From: an uncultured Gammaproteobacteria bacterium
GTDB taxonomy: Bacteria > Pseudomonadota > Gammaproteobacteria > Eutrophobiales > Eutrophobiaceae
Length of the DNA: 64,000 nucleotides
NCBI GenBank assembly: GCA_943788815.1
Contig: CALSRS010000001.1
Span: 1,611,501 to 1,675,500, forward strand
Reading direction: 5' to 3'
Shown: in pieces, positions 3,837 through 62,119 of the stretch
Numbering within the stretch: the stretch's first letter is position 1
How the letters are laid out: every line of letters begins with the position of its first letter
The notes under the pieces: generated by a model
Told to the model about the DNA's origin: nothing
The model's database searches: none
The model's input: only the letters and a program-made list of their open reading frames with translations
Program-made: the position numbers and the translations under genes

Positions 3837-4553
3837 ATGGACGTAGAGCTACCAATTCAGATCCACCCTCAACCAGATGACACCTCATGTGGGCCTACTT
3901 GCTTACAGGCAGTCTTCAACTACTACGGTGAGTCAGTTGACCTTAAAACAGTCATAAAAGAAACTCACATGCTCAACGGTGGTGGGACTCTGGCCGTATT
4001 CCTTGCATGTAATGCATTACGTCGCGGACTAAATACTACTATCTACACCTATAACCTTCAGGTCTTTGATCCTTCCTGGTTTCAATTATCAAATAGTGAA
4101 ATGATTTTTAAATTGATGCGGCAGAGTGAATTTAAAAATGACCCGAAACTACACGCCGCAACTGAGGGTTATATAGAATTTCTGAAGCTTGGCGGAAAAC
4201 TAAAACATGTGGATCTGACTACCAGGTTGATTCGCAGCATCATCAGAAAACGTCTACCTATACTGACTGGCCTGAGTTCTACCTATCTTTATCAGGATAA
4301 GCGGGAGTACGGGACCAATGATGTTTCCGATGATATTCGAGGTTACCCTGCAGGACATTTCGTATTGTTAACCGGTTATCACCGGGAAGGCAGGACAGTA
4401 TTGATCAATGATCCCCTTTCACCAAATCCGGCAGCACCTACGCAAATCTACCCAGTTAATATTGACAGAGTCATCTGTGCGATTTTGCTTGGTGTATTAA
4501 CCCATGACGCCAATTTGTTAGTAATTCAACCTGGATCGAGAAAAATTCGATGA
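3837..4553 (+). CDS. C39-like papain-fold cysteine peptidase
   Basis: A 238-residue soluble protein with the C39-like signature: Q12 (oxyanion hole) and C18 in TSCGPTC, then the His in AGHFVLLTGY near residue 172 and the following NDP. All triad positions appear intact. There is no ABC-transporter domain, signal peptide or membrane segment, so it should act in the cytoplasm. Its stop overlaps the next start by 4 bases (ATGA), coupling it to an ATP-grasp ligase, then a GCS2 amidoligase and an N-formylglutamate amidohydrolase homologue. It may trim or hydrolyse the amide or peptide made by those ligases; this is inferred. Confidence 0.8.
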   Translation: MDVELPIQIHPQPDDTSCGPTCLQAVFNYYGESVDLKTVIKETHMLNGGGTLAVFLACNALRRGLNTTIYTYNLQVFDPSWFQLSNSEMIFKLMRQSEFKNDPKLHAATEGYIEFLKLGGKLKHVDLTTRLIRSIIRKRLPILTGLSSTYLYQDKREYGTNDVSDDIRGYPAGHFVLLTGYHREGRTVLINDPLSPNPAAPTQIYPVNIDRVICAILLGVLTHDANLLVIQPGSRKIR

Positions 4554-6016
4554 AAATTTATTTTGTCGTAAACAATCCCAACAACTGGCCTTTAAAGATC
4601 CCCGGAGTTAATGTTGTTTCGGCCCGTGATTACTTGACCGATCCAAACTATAGTGATGAGAGGACAGCGAAGGTATTTAATCTTTGCCGATCCTACGCCT
4701 ATCAGAGCATTGGTTATTATGTATCACTACTGGCATCAGCACGCGGTCACAACCCCATGCCAGATATTAATACTATCCAGGACTTAAAGTCCCAGCATGT
4801 CATCAAGCTATTGTCCGAAGACATTGAAGAGGAAGTCGCCCGCGCATTAAATCCTTTACAGTCAGATACCTTTACCTTAAGTATTTATTTCGGTAAAAAT
4901 ATTGCCAAACGTTATGACAAACTCTGCCTGCGCTTATTCAATTTGTTCCGGGCACCGTTATTACGAGCGACATTTATTAAGGGAAAGAACTGGGAATTAA
5001 ATTCCATCAAGACAATTGCCGTAAACGATATACCGGAGTCTCATTTTGATTCCGTAATTGAGGCGGCTGAGACATACTTTTCCGGGAGAAAAAGGCACGC
5101 CAGGAGACGAACAACAACCCGGTACGATATCGCATTATTACATAACCCTGATGAGGAAAATGCACCTTCTGACGAGCGGGCCCTTAAAAAGTTCCAGCGT
5201 GCGGCTGAGGTCGTCGGACTGGACATGGAAATGATAACCCGAAATGACTTTCACCGACTGGCAGAGTTCGACGCCCTATTCATACGGGAGACGACAGCAG
5301 TCAATCACCATACATTCCGGTTTGCCCAGAGGGCAACGGCTGAAGGCCTGGTAGTGATGGACGACCCGGATTCAATACTAAAATGCACTAATAAAGTCTA
5401 CCTGGCAGAATTACTTGTCCGAAACAATGTACCGATACCCAAAACCCTGATCATCCATAGAAAGAACGTGAAAAAGATTAAGGAGTACCTTGGCCTGCCC
5501 TGTGTCCTCAAGAAGCCTGACAGTGCATTTTCCGCAGGTGTAAAAAAAGTAGAAGATGAAGAGCAGTTGGCCATTATGGTTAATCAGATGCTTGATGATT
5601 CAGATCTGATCGTTGGACAGGAATTTTTACCAACGGAATATGACTGGCGTATCGGTATCTGTGATCGCCGGCCATTATATGCCTGCCGTTATTACATGGC
5701 ACGAAAGCACTGGCAGATTATCAAACATGACACTACTGGCAAGACTCATGATGAAGGTAAGGTCGATACCATGTCGATCAGTGAGGCGCCGGAAGAGGTA
5801 GTAAAAATGGCCTTGAAAGCAGCTAACCTTATAGGCGATGGATTATATGGCGTGGATGTAAAACTGGTGGGGCAAAAACCTTACATTATCGAAGTGAATG
5901 ATAATCCAAGTATTGATTCTGGTTTTGAAGATGCCGTATTAAAAGACGCACTTTATCGTGAAATCATGGGCGTGTTTTTAAGGCGCATTGAAAATCAAAA
6001 GCGTGGAATATCATAA
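4550..6016 (+). CDS. RimK-like ATP-grasp amidoligase with RLAN domain
   Basis: Residues 1 to about 180 fit the RimK-like ATP-grasp N-terminal domain. A linker and pre-ATP-grasp segment follow, then an ATP-grasp fold from about 270 to 480. Visible ATP-grasp marks are CVLKKPDSAFSAGV (nucleotide lysine and small loop), the VGQEFLP strand, GVDVKLV and the Mg-binding IEVNDNPSID. Such enzymes activate a carboxylate as acyl phosphate and join it to an amine. At 488 residues it is longer than RimK itself, so it is not ribosomal protein S6 ligase. It overlaps the peptidase gene by 4 bases and sits 4 bases before the GCS2 gene, implying one pathway whose substrate is unknown. Confidence 0.85.
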   Translation: MKIYFVVNNPNNWPLKIPGVNVVSARDYLTDPNYSDERTAKVFNLCRSYAYQSIGYYVSLLASARGHNPMPDINTIQDLKSQHVIKLLSEDIEEEVARALNPLQSDTFTLSIYFGKNIAKRYDKLCLRLFNLFRAPLLRATFIKGKNWELNSIKTIAVNDIPESHFDSVIEAAETYFSGRKRHARRRTTTRYDIALLHNPDEENAPSDERALKKFQRAAEVVGLDMEMITRNDFHRLAEFDALFIRETTAVNHHTFRFAQRATAEGLVVMDDPDSILKCTNKVYLAELLVRNNVPIPKTLIIHRKNVKKIKEYLGLPCVLKKPDSAFSAGVKKVEDEEQLAIMVNQMLDDSDLIVGQEFLPTEYDWRIGICDRRPLYACRYYMARKHWQIIKHDTTGKTHDEGKVDTMSISEAPEEVVKMALKAANLIGDGLYGVDVKLVGQKPYIIEVNDNPSIDSGFEDAVLKDALYREIMGVFLRRIENQKRGIS

Positions 6017-6020
6017 GAGT

Positions 6021-7259
6021 ATGTCAAAATTACCGATTTTTTCCGCCTATGGTATTGAACTGGAATACATGATGGTTGACAGTGACACGCTAAATCCAAT
6101 CCCTGTTTCAGATAAAATAATTAAAGAGGTTGCTGGGGAATATGTAAATGAAGTTGAACAGGGTGAGATTGCCTGGTCCAACGAAGTGGTCCTTCACGTA
6201 ATTGAACTTAAGACCAATGGGCCAGTAGCGGATTTTGATAGGCTGCCGTCTCTTATGACCCGAAATATAACGGCAATTAACACGATTCTGGAAAGATACC
6301 ATGGCGTCCTGATGCCCACTGCTATGCATCCGTGGATGAATCCATATCTTGAAACCCAGCTGTGGCCTCATAGCAATTCAGAGATCTATGATACCTATGA
6401 TCGCATATTTAACTGCCAGGGCCACGGCTGGTCAAATCTGCAGAGCATGCATATCAATTTACCTTTCCTCAACGATAATGAATTCGCTCTATTACATACT
6501 GCTATCAGATTGTTACTCCCGATCATGCCAGCTATCGCAGCCAGTTCCCCGCTGATGGATGGTGAGTTAACCGGGTTGATGGATACCCGGATGGATACCT
6601 ATCGAAAAAATGCAAAAATGATACCGAGTATTACCGGGCTGGTTATTCCCGAAGCGGTAACCAGCCAGTCCGATTACCAGAAACAGATCCTTGACCCCAT
6701 GTATAAGGATATCGCAAGTTATGATCCCGATGCCATACTGCAGGATGAATGGTTAAATTCACGGGGCGCAATTGCCCGGTTTGACAGGAATACCATCGAA
6801 ATCAGGGTGCTGGATACTCAGGAAACACCACTTGCTGATCTTGCAATTGCAGAACTCATCAAGGCCGTATTGAAGAAAATTTCCTCCCTGCAATGGTGCG
6901 ACTTATCAAAACAGCTTGAAATTTCAACACCGGCACTTTCAGACATCTTCCTGAGCGTAATTAAAAATGCCGAACGTACGGTCATTCATAATAAAGACTA
7001 CCTTTCTTTATTTAACTTTCCCGACAAGCGCTGCGATGCACAGGAACTCTGGCAATTTCTGTTTGAATCAGTGGAACTGGATGAAACGGGTGACCGTGAA
7101 GCGATGCAACAGGTCATAAAGTTTATTTTTAAACATGGAACACTGGCCAGGAGGATCACAACCCCGCTGCAAAAAAGTTTAACTCAACCCCGATTAAAAG
7201 AAATCTACAGGGTACTGACTGAATGCCTTGCAAAGGAAACCTTGTTTGAAGGGATATAA
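6021..7259 (+). CDS. GCS2-type carboxylate-amine ligase (glutamate-cysteine ligase-like)
   Basis: This glutamine-synthetase-fold ligase resembles YbdK/GCS2 proteins. It has GIELEYMMVD near the start (Mg/ATP site), CQGHGWSNLQSMHINLP around residue 125, and RFDRNTIEIRVLDTQETP near 260. Family members form a gamma-glutamyl or similar amide using ATP. The ATG at 6021, 4 bases after the upstream stop, gives 412 residues and begins right before the conserved LPIFSAYGIELE. An in-frame ATG at 5988 would add 11 residues overlapping the previous gene and seems less likely. Glutathione synthesis is unlikely to be its role, because it belongs to a cassette with an ATP-grasp ligase and peptidase. Confidence 0.85.
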   Translation: MSKLPIFSAYGIELEYMMVDSDTLNPIPVSDKIIKEVAGEYVNEVEQGEIAWSNEVVLHVIELKTNGPVADFDRLPSLMTRNITAINTILERYHGVLMPTAMHPWMNPYLETQLWPHSNSEIYDTYDRIFNCQGHGWSNLQSMHINLPFLNDNEFALLHTAIRLLLPIMPAIAASSPLMDGELTGLMDTRMDTYRKNAKMIPSITGLVIPEAVTSQSDYQKQILDPMYKDIASYDPDAILQDEWLNSRGAIARFDRNTIEIRVLDTQETPLADLAIAELIKAVLKKISSLQWCDLSKQLEISTPALSDIFLSVIKNAERTVIHNKDYLSLFNFPDKRCDAQELWQFLFESVELDETGDREAMQQVIKFIFKHGTLARRITTPLQKSLTQPRLKEIYRVLTECLAKETLFEGI

Positions 7260-7983
7260 CGGTCAAATTATTCTGAGTTGCGAACATGGTGGCAACCAAA
7301 TACCCAGCAATTATCAAAAACTGTTCAAGCGGCAGGTTAACCTGCTTAATTCACACTATGCTTACGATAAGGGAGCGCTAGTTGTAGCCAGAAGGCTGTC
7401 AAAACGACTAAAAGCACCTTTGATCTATTCAATAACATCCCGGTTATTGATTGACCTGAACCGTTCATTGCATCATCCAGGATTGTTTTCTGATTTTTCC
7501 AGAAGTGCCAACGATATTATAAAATCTGAAATCATAAAGCATCATTACTCTCCTTATCATTCCAGGATAGGTAAGTTAATTGATGAGTCAATACAACATA
7601 ACAAACGTGCCTTTCATTTTTCCATACACAGCTTTACCCCAGAATTAAATGGTGAAGTCCGCAACGCAGATTTTGGCATCCTTTATAATCCTTCCAGAAA
7701 TATTGAAAAGAAAATCGCAAAATCATTACAACTATTTATCAAGGAAAATTCTGGTTTTTCAGTCAGACTAAATTATCCATACCTGGGAAAGGCAGACGGA
7801 CTGACAACCATACTCAGGAAGAAATACCCTGTTAGTCGTTATTGTGGAATTGAAATAGAGATGAACCAGAGTGCCTTTGACAATCCCAGGAACAAAACTA
7901 ATGAATTCGTATATATATTGACCAAGGGGATTGGTGAGGTGTTAGGAGTGAGGAGTATTATCCCGCGAAGGATATTCACTTAG
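7228..7983 (+). CDS. N-formylglutamate amidohydrolase-family hydrolase
   Basis: The 251-residue protein has family marks SCEHGGNQIP near residue 18, YDKGA, FHFSIHSFTPELNG around 130 and IEIEMNQSAF near 210. These Zn-dependent hydrolases cut N-acyl or N-formyl amides, classically N-formylglutamate in histidine degradation. No hut genes are present here. It overlaps the GCS2 gene by 32 bases, so it belongs to the amidoligase cassette and probably hydrolyses an amide of that pathway. The start at 7228 is the only ATG; a TTG at 7246 would shorten it by six residues. Confidence 0.8.
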   Translation: MQRKPCLKGYNGQIILSCEHGGNQIPSNYQKLFKRQVNLLNSHYAYDKGALVVARRLSKRLKAPLIYSITSRLLIDLNRSLHHPGLFSDFSRSANDIIKSEIIKHHYSPYHSRIGKLIDESIQHNKRAFHFSIHSFTPELNGEVRNADFGILYNPSRNIEKKIAKSLQLFIKENSGFSVRLNYPYLGKADGLTTILRKKYPVSRYCGIEIEMNQSAFDNPRNKTNEFVYILTKGIGEVLGVRSIIPRRIFT

Positions 7984-8199: not shown

Positions 8200-8610
8200 A
8201 TGATTTATACCATGAAGCCTGACGACCTACACTGCTGGAAATGCGACGCATCGCTAAAAGATGTCCTATTACCTCTATCACGCTTATCCCAATGCAAAAC
8301 CTGCCATGCAGATCTACACGTGTGCCGTATGTGTCAGTTTTACGATATCCGTGTCAATAACAGTTGCCGTGAACCCATAGCAGAGAAAGTCGCAGACAAG
8401 ACCCGAAAAAACTTTTGTGGTTACTTACAACCCACCGACAAGGCATATCAAGCAGGTGATACAAGCCAGGCCTCCTCATCAAAACAGCAACTTGATGCAT
8501 TATTTGGCCTGGACTCAACTGAGGATCAAAATGACGCTAACGCGTCTCCTGATGAGGAGGCAAGACGGAAGCTGGAGGAGCTGTTTAATTTTGATAAGGG
8601 TGAGGAGTGA
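8200..8610 (+). CDS. Conserved Cys-rich zinc-ribbon-like protein
   Basis: A 136-residue soluble protein of unknown function. The first 80 residues hold cysteine pairs typical of metal binding: HCWKCDA, QCKTCHADLHVCRMCQFYD, then SCREP and FCGYLQP. The pattern C-R-x-C-x-F-Y-D...C-R-E-P-x-A-E resembles an uncharacterised proteobacterial family. The last 50 residues are acidic and Gln/Ser-rich, probably disordered, with a helical EEARRKLEELF end. MKPDDLHC at 8212 is a second possible start. It appears to be a single-gene unit. Confidence 0.75.
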   Translation: MIYTMKPDDLHCWKCDASLKDVLLPLSRLSQCKTCHADLHVCRMCQFYDIRVNNSCREPIAEKVADKTRKNFCGYLQPTDKAYQAGDTSQASSSKQQLDALFGLDSTEDQNDANASPDEEARRKLEELFNFDKGEE

Positions 8611-50970: not shown

Positions 50971-51237
50971 ATGAAAAAATTAAATAAATCAATTGCAGTA
51001 ACGAGCGCAATAACGGCAGCATTATTACTTGCATCTACAGGGCCAGCAGTTGCTCAGAGTGCAAGTATGGAAAAGTGTTTTGGTATTGCAAAAGCAGGCA
51101 AGAATGATTGTGCTGCCGGCCCAGGCACTTCCTGCGCAGGGACCAGCACGAAGGACGCTCAGGGAAATGCATGGATGTATATTCCCGCTGGCACATGCGA
51201 AAAGATTGTAGGCGGATCATTAACAGCCAAAAAATAA
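50971..51237 (+). CDS. bufA1: Bufferin precursor peptide (DUF2282)
   Basis: An 88-residue precursor. Residues 1-29 are a Sec signal ending in VAQS, and the core is about 59 residues with four cysteines, C36, C47, C55 and C76. [18 protein letters not shown] and [12 protein letters not shown] match the DUF2282 bufferin type. In characterised bufferins an MNIO enzyme converts Cys residues to copper-binding heterocycles before export. The gene is followed by a weak terminator, then bufB, bufC and bufD. A TATAAT box lies at 50919-50924. Confidence 0.88.
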
Positions 51238-51266
51238 GAGATGATATAAAACCTGAAGACATGAAA

Positions 51267-51291
51267 GGCCGGTGTAATCTACCGGTCTTTT
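51267..51291 (+). terminator. Hairpin between bufA1 and bufB
   Basis: GGCCGGT and ACCGGTC pair (one G-U) around GTAATCT and are followed by four T residues. It may partly stop transcription, so the precursor would be made in excess of the modifying enzymes, as in other RiPP operons. Confidence 0.6.
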
Positions 51292-51320
51292 AACTTCACC
51301 GCTTAGAATCTTAATCGTTA

Positions 51321-52184
51321 ATGCAAACTTTTCTTCCATCCACCTCAGGCATTAGTCTTAAACCCAAGCATTACAAGCTAATACTTGAAACAGAACCAAA
51401 AGTTGGCTGGTTTGAGGTGCATCCGGAAAATTACATGGGAAATGGGGGTGCCCCTCATAAATATCTGACTGAGATTCGTAGTCTATACCCTCTCTCCATG
51501 CATGGCGTAGGAATGTCTTTGGGATCAGCCACTAAAATTAATGAAGACCATCTGAACGCACTTTGTAAACTTGTAAAACGTTATCAACCTCAAATGATAT
51601 CCGAACATTTGTCCTGGAGCAGATTAGGAAACACCTACTTAAATGATTTACTTCCCCTGCCATATACTGACGAAAGCCTTAAGGTGATTGTAAATAATAT
51701 TGATCGCACTCAAACAACCTTGGGGAGAAAAATACTTATAGAAAATCCTTCCATATACCTCGCTTTTAATAACAGCACTTATAGTGAACCTGAATTTCTA
51801 AATAACCTAGTTGAACAAAGTGGTTGTGGATTATTACTAGATGTAAATAATATATTTGTTTCTGCATGTAATCAGGGATTTGATCCCTACAACTACATAC
51901 GCAAGATAAAAACAGAAGCTGTTGGTGAGATTCACCTTGCAGGCCACACAGTACAAAAAATTAACGACACTGAGATTCGTATCGATGATCATGGCTCAAA
52001 AGTCATAGAAGAAGTGTGGAGTCTCTTTTCGTTCGCAATTAAATATATTGGTAACCGAGTACCGGTGATGATTGAATGGGATACTGATATACCAGAATTA
52101 TCGGTACTAATTGATGAAATGAAAAAAGCAAATGCTATGATGAATAAAATTATTACCTCATCCAAAAAAATGTCTGCAGCATGA
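51321..52184 (+). CDS. bufB: MNIO enzyme of the bufferin locus (DUF692)
   Basis: A TIM-barrel multinuclear non-haem iron oxidative enzyme. DUF692 marks are GISLKPKHYKLIL, VHPENYMG, HGVGMSLGS and EHLSWSR (metal His), ILIENPSIYL, DVNNIFVSACNQGFDP and EIHLAGHT. In bufferin systems it oxidises Cys residues of the precursor. The length, 287 residues, is typical. It overlaps the DUF2063 partner by 4 bases. Confidence 0.92.
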   Translation: MQTFLPSTSGISLKPKHYKLILETEPKVGWFEVHPENYMGNGGAPHKYLTEIRSLYPLSMHGVGMSLGSATKINEDHLNALCKLVKRYQPQMISEHLSWSRLGNTYLNDLLPLPYTDESLKVIVNNIDRTQTTLGRKILIENPSIYLAFNNSTYSEPEFLNNLVEQSGCGLLLDVNNIFVSACNQGFDPYNYIRKIKTEAVGEIHLAGHTVQKINDTEIRIDDHGSKVIEEVWSLFSFAIKYIGNRVPVMIEWDTDIPELSVLIDEMKKANAMMNKIITSSKKMSAA

Positions 52185-52969
52185 GCAAATCTTTACCATT
52201 AATCGAGCTACAGAGAAATTTTACCCAATGTCTGTTTGATAATAATTTACATGCAGACTACTTGCCCTTAGACGATGCAACAAAATCAACCAATGATCAA
52301 CGTCTTGATATTTACCGAAATAATATTTTTTATTCGTTAAAAAATGCTCTTGCAGAATTATATCCGGTATTTAAACGTTTAACCGGAGACGATTTTTTCA
52401 ATGGGGCAGGGCTTGCCTACCTTAATATGTATCCACCAGAACAAGCATCGATGGTAAATTTCGGTAAAACATTTCCTGAATTTTTAGAAAAATTTGAGTA
52501 TGCGAGTAACTATAAATGGTTAGCAGATATTGCCCAATTAGAACTTGCTTGGCATCAGTCGTACCATGAAGCTGATACAGTTTCGTTGACCCCTGCTGAT
52601 TTAGCTCATATCCCACCGCACAAATTGGCCGATATGAATCTAAGACTACATCCTTCCTTCAGGTTAATTAATTCAAAATACCCTATTTATAAAATATGGC
52701 TAGCTAACCAGGATGGCGTAGACAATGATGAAACGATAGACCTAGATGCAGGAGGTGATATTTTATGTCTCTATAGGCCACAATATGATGTAATCATTAA
52801 GGTAATAAGCTTAGGGGCTTATGTTTTTTTATCAAACCTTCAACAGGGACAAACTCTGGGGAACGCAATAATCTCTGCAACGGAGTCAGACTCCGGATTT
52901 GCCGCAGAAAAGGTACTTTCTAATTGTTTATTAGAACAATATTTTGAAAAATTAATTGAGGCGAAATAG
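52181..52969 (+). CDS. bufC: MNIO partner protein (DUF2063)
   Basis: A 262-residue DUF2063 protein whose N-terminal part (LDIYRNNIFYSLKNALAELYPVFKRL) is the usual DUF2063 start. It is thought to bring the precursor to the MNIO enzyme. It follows bufB with a 4-base overlap and directly abuts the DoxX gene, whose ATG comes right after its stop. The C-terminal half is less conserved. Confidence 0.88.
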   Translation: MSKSLPLIELQRNFTQCLFDNNLHADYLPLDDATKSTNDQRLDIYRNNIFYSLKNALAELYPVFKRLTGDDFFNGAGLAYLNMYPPEQASMVNFGKTFPEFLEKFEYASNYKWLADIAQLELAWHQSYHEADTVSLTPADLAHIPPHKLADMNLRLHPSFRLINSKYPIYKIWLANQDGVDNDETIDLDAGGDILCLYRPQYDVIIKVISLGAYVFLSNLQQGQTLGNAIISATESDSGFAAEKVLSNCLLEQYFEKLIEAK

Positions 52970-53446
52970 ATGATTAAAAAGATTGGTGTTTTTACTAACA
53001 GCTTAAACAGACTATTTTTAATCTTTCCTGAATCGATTATTGCGCTAATTTCAAGGCTTGCTGTTGCTTCTGTATTCTGGCGTTCTACGCAAACCAAAAT
53101 CTCTGGTGGTGAACTTTTTGGACAAAATTGGAAATTCTGGAGTGTAAATGAGAGTACGGTATTCTTATTCCAATATGAATATTCCTTACCTTTGCTGCCT
53201 TATAAGATGGCGGCCTACCTTGCGACGTTTAGTGAATATTTTCTATCATTGGCTGTTGTATTAGGCTTTGCCACGCGCTTGAGTGCTCTTGGCCTTTTGA
53301 TTATGACCGCTGTAATTCAAGTTTTTGTATACCCCGAATCATGGAGTGTACATATACTGTGGGCTGCAATACTTGTTTACCTCATTAAACATGGTGGCGG
53401 TAAAATATCATTAGATCATTTACTGAATAAAAATATTCCTGCCTGA
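52970..53446 (+). CDS. bufD: DoxX-family membrane protein
   Basis: A 158-residue membrane protein with about four helices, including ISRLAVASVFWRSTQTKISG near residue 25, the typical DoxX opening, and PLLPYKMAAYLATFSEYFLSLAVVLGFATRLSAL. DoxX proteins often close bufferin operons and may help export or redox handling. It begins directly after bufC. Confidence 0.88.
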   Translation: MIKKIGVFTNSLNRLFLIFPESIIALISRLAVASVFWRSTQTKISGGELFGQNWKFWSVNESTVFLFQYEYSLPLLPYKMAAYLATFSEYFLSLAVVLGFATRLSALGLLIMTAVIQVFVYPESWSVHILWAAILVYLIKHGGGKISLDHLLNKNIPA

Positions 53447-61168: not shown

Positions 61169-62119
61169 ATGAAACTAGGCGTTGTAATGGATCCCATAGA
61201 GGGGATTAACATAAAAAAAGATAGCACTTTTTCCATGCTACTTGCCGCACAGGCCAGGGGTTGGGATTTATATTACATGGAACAAAATGATTTACTTATT
61301 CAAGATGGTGTAGCCAGGGCAAGAGTAAAGCCACTTTCAGTAAAAGACGATTTTTCTGGTTGGTATGCGTTTGGAAACCAAAGTGATATAGACTTAGCTG
61401 ATCTTGATGTGGTTTTAATGCGAAAAGATCCTCCATTTGACATTGAATATATCTATACAACTTACATTTTACAATTTGCCCAGGAAAAGGGCTTGCTGGT
61501 TATAAATGATCCTGCTGGATTGCGTAACGTTAATGAAAAAATGTTTATCAATACATTCCCTGATTGCATCGCTCCGACATTAGTAACTCGAGATAAAGAT
61601 CGTCTCACTGAATTTCTTGAACTACACAAACAGGCTGTCTTTAAACCGCTAGAGGGCATGGGAGGAAAATCTGTATTTAAAGTTGATCATAATGATCCAA
61701 ATTTAAACGTCATTATAGAAACACTTACTCGGGACCAATCCCGCTTTATTATGGGACAAAAATATATCCCGGAAATAAAAGATGGAGACAAAAGAATCTT
61801 GTTAATCAATGGGGAGCCGGTGGATTATGCTCTTGCTAGAATACCAAAATCAGGAGAAACCCGCGGAAATCTGGCTGCCGGCGGAACAGGCAAAGGTGTT
61901 GAACTCAGTGAACGTGATAAATGGATATGTCGCAAAGTTGGCCCCGTTCTCAGAAGTATGGGGCTCTTATTTGTTGGCCTTGATGTTATTGGAGACTATT
62001 TAACTGAGGTCAATGTTACCAGCCCAACATGTATTCGTGAACTAGATGCGATATATGGAATCAATATAGGTGATCAATTAATGGAGTTGATTGATAAGAA
62101 GGTTAATGACAAGCAGTAA
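61169..62119 (+). CDS. gshB: Glutathione synthetase
   Basis: ATP-grasp enzyme adding Gly to gamma-glutamylcysteine. VLMRKDPPFDIEYIYTTYIL, KPLEGMGGKSVFKV and GLDVIGDYLTEVNVTSPTCI are standard. The length is 316 residues. It overlaps tonB by 14 bases and opens the gshB-tonB-yqgE-ruvX set. Confidence 0.95.
   Translation: MKLGVVMDPIEGINIKKDSTFSMLLAAQARGWDLYYMEQNDLLIQDGVARARVKPLSVKDDFSGWYAFGNQSDIDLADLDVVLMRKDPPFDIEYIYTTYILQFAQEKGLLVINDPAGLRNVNEKMFINTFPDCIAPTLVTRDKDRLTEFLELHKQAVFKPLEGMGGKSVFKVDHNDPNLNVIIETLTRDQSRFIMGQKYIPEIKDGDKRILLINGEPVDYALARIPKSGETRGNLAAGGTGKGVELSERDKWICRKVGPVLRSMGLLFVGLDVIGDYLTEVNVTSPTCIRELDAIYGINIGDQLMELIDKKVNDKQ

Follow-up and report, generated by a model that had tools for sequence, protein, structure and literature searches.

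A recurrent four-gene cassette

The 64-kb stretch of DNA analysed here (the window) carries four adjoining genes, encoding a papain-fold cysteine enzyme, two amide ligases of different families and an amidohydrolase. This gene set recurs far beyond chance. The features are listed below.

3837..4553, plus strand: C39/papain-fold cysteine enzyme gene (PF13529/PF03412; 238 aa; no ABC-transporter domain)
4550..6016, plus strand: RLAN and RimK-type ATP-grasp amide ligase gene (PF14401, PF08443; 488 aa)
6021..7259, plus strand: GCS2-family ligase gene, carboxylate-amine ligase type (PF04107; 412 aa from ATG)
7228..7983, plus strand: FGase-family amidohydrolase gene (PF05013; 251 aa, start uncertain)

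According to the ORF coordinates, the C39 and ligase genes overlap by 4 nt (4550–4553), the ligase and GCS2 genes are separated by a 4-nt gap (6017–6020), and the GCS2 and FGase genes overlap by 32 nt (7228–7259). An earlier sequence-only reading had given these junctions exactly to the base, and its assignment of two amide ligases, a C39-like protein and an amidohydrolase agrees with Pfam (C39, RLAN plus RimK-type ATP-grasp, GCS2 and FGase). The GCS2 ORF starts at ATG 6021 or, in a longer form, at TTG 5988, and that of FGase at TTG 7228 or at the in-frame TTG 7246. All four proteins score below the cut-off of every NCBIfam model listed for each. Promoter- and terminator-like sites at the cassette show no excess over shuffles, and no defence system is matched there by PADLOC.

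With about even confidence, we read the cassette as a cytosolic one that would make and recycle a small peptide or amide of the γ-glutamyl type, for which we infer the substrates, the order of steps, the location and the product. The cytosolic location is suggested by the lack of a signal peptide on inspection by eye.

Distribution and gene order

RLAN carriers comprise 13 of 40 relatives (host genome included), 81 of 369 genomes in the class sample and 72 of 398 in the phylum sample. The first locus set, consisting of 89 neighbourhoods from the relatives and class samples plus the window, totals 90 loci. A stand-alone C39 gene is present in 25 of these, the window included (type B), while 64 are of another kind (type A); L088 is the sole locus with the ligase and GCS2 genes and without C39. 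Two of the 25 stand-alone-C39 loci end at a contig edge, and the other 23 contain GCS2 in 22 cases and FGase in 20.

A scan with the GCS2 alignment only retrieved at least 576 relatives, of which the best 80 were examined, partly overlapping the genomes of the first set. These best 80 loci represent 14 named phyla; 4 of them have no phylum placement. The ligase gene lies within 5 kb of GCS2 on the same strand in 79 of the 80 and immediately upstream in 77; within the same distance, the C39 gene is found in 71 of the 75 loci with room for it, and FGase in 60 of 76. The full set of four is present in 55 of the best 80, from 11 named phyla, a count in which the C39 of L211 and the GCS2 of L181 are read in two pieces. 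The conserved co-occurrence that the sequence-only reading had looked to is thus borne out in a fixed order across many phyla; that reading overlooked that some carriers, a minority, lack FGase and sometimes C39. In the class sample, each of the 17 genomes with this GCS2 (E ≤ 1e-40) also belongs to the 81 of 369 that carry RLAN. Distance correlations among the four cassette proteins amount to 0.39–0.69, with no unrelated-gene control, and are not counted as support.

Genome G139 carries C39 and the ligase on one contig, and adjoining GCS2 and FGase genes on another. This split into two pairs implies that the linkage is not only inherited synteny. FGase is located away from the locus in G139, G023 (in two frames), G395 and, weakly, G401, and C39 in G402 and G405; some seeming gene losses are relocations. 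Genome searches detected no FGase gene in 12 of 17 genomes (16 of the 17 picked for having no FGase at the locus), and no C39 gene in 4 of 7 (6 picked for having no C39 at the locus). Their absence from some carriers indicates that neither is strictly needed. Co-occurrence and losses together point to C39, the ligase and GCS2 as the usual core and to FGase as the usual fourth part.

Natural minimal versions, with the ligase and GCS2 genes adjoining or nearly so, occur at L088 (G239) and L162 (G397, Thermophagus), and genome searches found neither C39 nor FGase in either genome. On plasmids there is no C39 match and one GCS2 match, in a 9-kb record labelled as a Legionella adelaidensis plasmid (L221, NZ_LR134436.1), with the order ligase-GCS2-FGase and no C39 listed. 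This cassette adjoins fur, bamE and dapF, and the record may therefore be a piece of the chromosome.

The C39/papain-fold protein

The first protein matches PF13529 (5.7e-11) and PF03412 (2.1e-6) in Pfam, and reaches 24.1 bits with the PA2778-family NCBIfam model, which requires 150. Residues Q12, C18, H174 and D192 are kept in all 87 rows of an alignment from which, as in the other residue-conservation alignments, duplicates and rows shorter than 85% of the window protein had been removed beforehand. Among the conserved residues of the cassette proteins are putative members of the catalytic triad and putative metal ligands of their families. The peptidase triad, ATP-grasp Mg site and amidohydrolase metal residues, described as intact from the window alone, are putative catalytic residues kept across relatives.

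The AF2 model (pLDDT 93.6) superimposes to the PCAT1 peptidase (6mpz) with Z 16.4 (136 residues aligned, 2.0 Å) and to the Alr0975-glutathione acyl enzyme (2bu3) with Z 16.3 (160 aligned, 2.3 Å). By Z, the predicted fold is tied between the double-glycine peptidases and Alr0975, a phytochelatin synthase that cleaves glutathione. Foldseek places PeiR and PCAT1 on top (2.5e-5) and Alr0975 22nd (3.5e-3), and the sequence profile of the protein retrieves ComA/PCAT1 peptidases. Double-glycine C39 export peptidases are fused to an ABC transporter, whereas the window protein is a 238-residue chain with no transporter domain. Phytochelatin synthase (C83) has a papain fold that acts on γ-Glu-Cys-Gly; for the window model it is level with the C39 peptidases by Z and lower in Foldseek, and neither Pfam nor the sequence profile gives a match to it. 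The C39 protein may be a hydrolase or a transferase.

The RLAN ATP-grasp ligase

The ligase consists of an N-terminal RLAN domain (PF14401, residues 25–170; 9.4e-49, 165.4 bits for a cut-off of 25) fused to a RimK-like ATP-grasp part (PF08443, residues 281–456; 3.2e-9), the organization of RLAN-type ATP-grasp proteins. The ATP-grasp part had been recognized from the sequence alone, and the RLAN domain overlooked. Residues K321, D436, E448 and N450 are kept in 92 of 92 aligned rows.

In the predicted structure (pLDDT 89.4, pTM 0.61), the part spanning residues about 192–482 matches LysX/ArgX with Z 27.6–28.4 (best three: Z 28.4–28.1, rmsd 2.1–2.4, 262–268 aligned) and RimK with Z 26.8–27.3. The best RimK value is about 1 lower, so the two fold groups are scarcely apart for this model. 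Glutathione synthetase 1gsa follows with Z 22.5, and the graspetide ligase PsnB has the same fold. The NCBIfam scores lie below the RimK cut-offs, at 68.1 bits against 143.4 for the RimK family (TIGR00768) and 27.3 against 331 for the RimK equivalog. The window ligase has the ATP-grasp fold in common with RimK/RimB and LysX/ArgX, and probably also the attachment of amino acids through their amine; the extra RLAN domain sets it apart from them.

The near-equal closeness to RimK is consistent with a protein-tagging role, in which RLAN would bind a target protein, the ligases would add glutamate-type residues, and C39 and FGase would remove them, comparable to RimK and RimB acting on ribosomal protein S6. 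RimK/RimB is a precedent for a paired ligase and protease, as a section of PMC12239564 describes. We nevertheless judge such tagging unlikely: two chemically different ligases and an FGase-type hydrolase would fit a metabolite better, and no widely shared neighbour presents itself as a possible target.

The GCS2 ligase and the FGase hydrolase

The GCS2 protein matches PF04107 (4.1e-22) and stays below the cut-offs of all 8 NCBIfam models listed; with 58.5 bits for 176.4 required, it is not assigned to the YbdK type (TIGR02050). Residues E13 and E15 are kept in 93 and R262 in all of the 95 alignment rows, of which at least 97% agree in 67 columns. The protein matches solved γ-GCS chains weakly (E 0.005–0.8), and YbdK-like 1tt4 likewise (1.3).

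The FGase protein matches PF05013 (1.1e-24), and E13, H14, D41, R66, N72 and H128 are conserved in 73 of 73 rows. Its nearest solved relative is Atu2144 (2odf; profile match 7.8e-36), deposited as a hypothetical protein. The N-formylglutamate deformylase HutG belongs to the same PF05013 family, and the window protein misses the HutG cut-off (TIGR02017) with 17.1 of 278.75 bits.

Separation from glutathione synthesis

The three kinds of fold in the cassette (GCS, ATP-grasp and papain) are also those of glutathione synthesis and Alr0975. An accessory or variant thiol system, similar to glutathione or phytochelatin, would account for the GCS2 and GSH-synthetase-like folds, for the tie of the C39 model with Alr0975 and for the 1gsa match of the ligase. 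The host genome, however, already has a separate GshA (PF08886, 6.4e-179) elsewhere and a GshB (PF02955) at window positions 61169–62119, both coexisting with the cassette, and a much stronger RimK-family match elsewhere (PF08443, 1.6e-69). These separate genes indicate that the cassette ligases are not the ordinary enzymes of the genome; together with the missed NCBIfam cut-offs, they answer the objection, anticipated in the sequence-only reading, that the ligases could be ordinary glutathione or RimK enzymes. The PF08886 GshA also rules out the cassette GCS2 as the only γ-GCS of the genome, and the cassette ligases as a pair are not its only γ-GCS and GSH synthetase. PF04262 is absent from the host genome, no second GCS2 was found in it, and a second FGase match is weak (5.8e-7).

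Among 19 carrier genomes, host included, a GshB-like match is strong (E < 1e-50) in 6, at a weaker, RimK level only in 10 and absent in 3. PF04262 is found in 0 of the 19; PF08886 was searched in the host genome of this group. The distribution argues against the thiol system, which we regard as quite improbable.

A sister branch with a GNAT-DUF3335 fusion

The 2009 amidoligase survey by Iyer, Abhiman, Burroughs and Aravind reportedly described a neighbourhood of RLAN, GNAT-DUF3335 (papain-like) and M20 genes, and both the survey and the Pfam text on RLAN reportedly name papain-like peptidases, M20 and GCS2 among the neighbours. The earlier remark that related neighbourhoods are known agrees with this survey; the sequence-only reading passed over the sister cassette with its GNAT-DUF3335 fusion. 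In the survey's neighbourhood, an RLAN-RimK ligase adjoins a papain-fold cysteine enzyme, as in the window; the window cassette differs in having no GNAT and a stand-alone C39, followed by GCS2 and FGase in fixed order. Passages of PMC12239564 and PMC10318531 cite the survey, one in the latter noting that fusion to GNAT is frequent in DUF3335 proteins, and part of PMC2922099 deals with enzymes of the ATP-grasp and papain-like kinds that belong to other operons. Among the open-licence papers listed, none dealt with this cassette or its product. The present analysis contributes the division into two branches, the recognition of FGase as the usual fourth gene, and evidence that counts against the glutathione, RimK and linked-RiPP readings.

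The GNAT-DUF3335 fusion is found near 60 of 64 type-A loci against 0 of 25 type-B loci, and Pfam is positive in 6 of 6 type-A examples; a looser GNAT-C39 pass gave matches at 5 of 106 type-B loci. The window C39 has no GNAT match in Pfam, which places it outside the GNAT-DUF3335 neighbourhood. A tree was built from 156 ligases, with duplicates and proteins below 440 aa omitted. A single branch (SH-aLRT 100) sets all 94 ligases of type B apart; the best-80 rows are typed by GCS2 by construction, and the class and relatives rows by C39 (L088 by GCS2). On this sequence tree, the window-type ligases are placed in a branch apart from the relatives beside the GNAT-DUF3335 fusion.

Type-A loci have M20 nearby in 15 of 64 cases, M14 in 6 and DUF2817 in 5 (4 in a first, stricter pass and 5 in a looser one), 26 of 64 in total and never two together. 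These hydrolases, which we take to be of the same fold class as FGase, perhaps fill in the sister cassette the position that FGase occupies in the window type. M20 also occurs close to 9 of 106 type-B loci, 7 of these in records titled Pontibacter, which blurs the hydrolase-slot argument; together with the looser GNAT-C39 matches it also speaks against a neat two-branch split. A gene of the DUF155/RMND1 family, identified by Pfam on L074 only, is near the ligase at 7 of 64 type-A loci (e.g. L055, L074, L113) and 2 of 25 type-B loci.

The making of the butirosin side chain includes a γ-glutamyl protecting step. In a comparable acyl transfer, the C39-fold protein would be an amide-forming acyltransferase, with GCS2 attaching a γ-glutamyl protecting group and FGase removing it. 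A passage of PMC10318531 describes the domain of the papain-like acyltransferase BtrH as a close relation of C39, and the C39-like domain of the sister cassette is fused to GNAT. No carrier protein or acceptor-making gene is, however, a widely shared neighbour, and we consider this acyl transfer decidedly improbable.

Neighbouring genes

Other recurrent neighbours of the best 80 of at least 576 GCS2 loci are limited to 9 loci or fewer each, mostly in Pontibacter; one group occurs in Rufibacter, Sabulibacter and Adhaeribacter, with stray members elsewhere. Near the cassette loci, the searches revealed neither a precursor ORF nor a transporter whose conservation extends past close relatives. These results bear on RiPP maturation, in which the ATP-grasp enzyme would cyclize, and the C39 enzyme cut, a ribosomal precursor; PsnB has the ligase fold, and C39 peptidases cut leaders. 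Small ORFs lying no more than 1 kb from 69 quartets were grouped, and the 8 largest groups come from closely related genomes (Pontibacter; Rufibacter/Sabulibacter; the window's family), two of them adding the planctomycete L169, whose match probably is the class-II glutamine amidotransferase described below. Graspetides have an adjacent precursor peptide gene; apart from these two groups, no 20–80 aa ORF of the 8 largest is common to more than close relatives, and no transporter is widely shared. The linked RiPP reading is unlikely, and RiPP maturation as the function of the cassette seems to us most improbable.

The class-II glutamine amidotransferase lies beside the cassette at L043 (7975–8817), L044, L046, L051 and L052, all of the window's family, and a close relative (4.7e-140) lies on the other side of the cassette at L169 (10942–12054). 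Because of this planctomycete occurrence it is not dismissed as synteny of the window's family; should it turn out to act on γ-glutamyl bonds, it could be an additional member of the cassette.

Several further candidates were rejected. A small many-cysteine protein at window positions 8200–8610, Zn-ribbon-like by eye and with no Pfam match, was considered as a fifth gene; it has a relative in only 3 of the 89 other loci. These three come from the same genus, and in each the gene is oriented opposite to the cassette. The upstream FAA hydrolase recurs only in these three loci, and the downstream TauE in two of them and in type-A L131. The cluster labelled c15 is probably a shadow ORF of the GNAT-C39 gene. 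Elsewhere in the window, an operon at 50971–53446 encodes a signal-like Cys-rich peptide, an MbnB/TglH/ChrH-family enzyme (PF05114), DUF2063 and DoxX; it looks like a metal-binding RiPP operon of the type for which we take bufferin to be the name.

Proposed pathway and implications

In the γ-glutamyl make-and-recycle reading, GCS2 would use ATP to activate a side-chain carboxylate, probably the γ-carboxylate of glutamate, and couple it with an amine. A carboxylate of the GCS2 product would be linked by the RLAN ATP-grasp ligase to the amine of an amino acid, in the manner of LysX, ArgX and RimK. The C39 enzyme would cut or transfer the peptide, and the FGase-family hydrolase would remove an acyl or glutamyl cap, releasing a free amino acid.

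A broader and more tentative proposal, possible though clearly speculative, is that of an unassigned primary or stress metabolite shared across phyla, a γ-glutamyl-capped small peptide with dedicated enzymes for its making and recycling. The N-capping chemistry would have been exchanged during evolution: the sister branch would use GNAT acylation and M20/M14-type decapping, and this branch γ-glutamylation by GCS2 and decapping by FGase.

The gene set recurs across phyla in the best 80 of at least 576 GCS2 loci, with no assigned product found. Since the gene set is defined, its sister group is clean and some carriers (Pontibacter, Rufibacter, Roseivirga) are cultured and harmless, the product of the cassette is directly testable.
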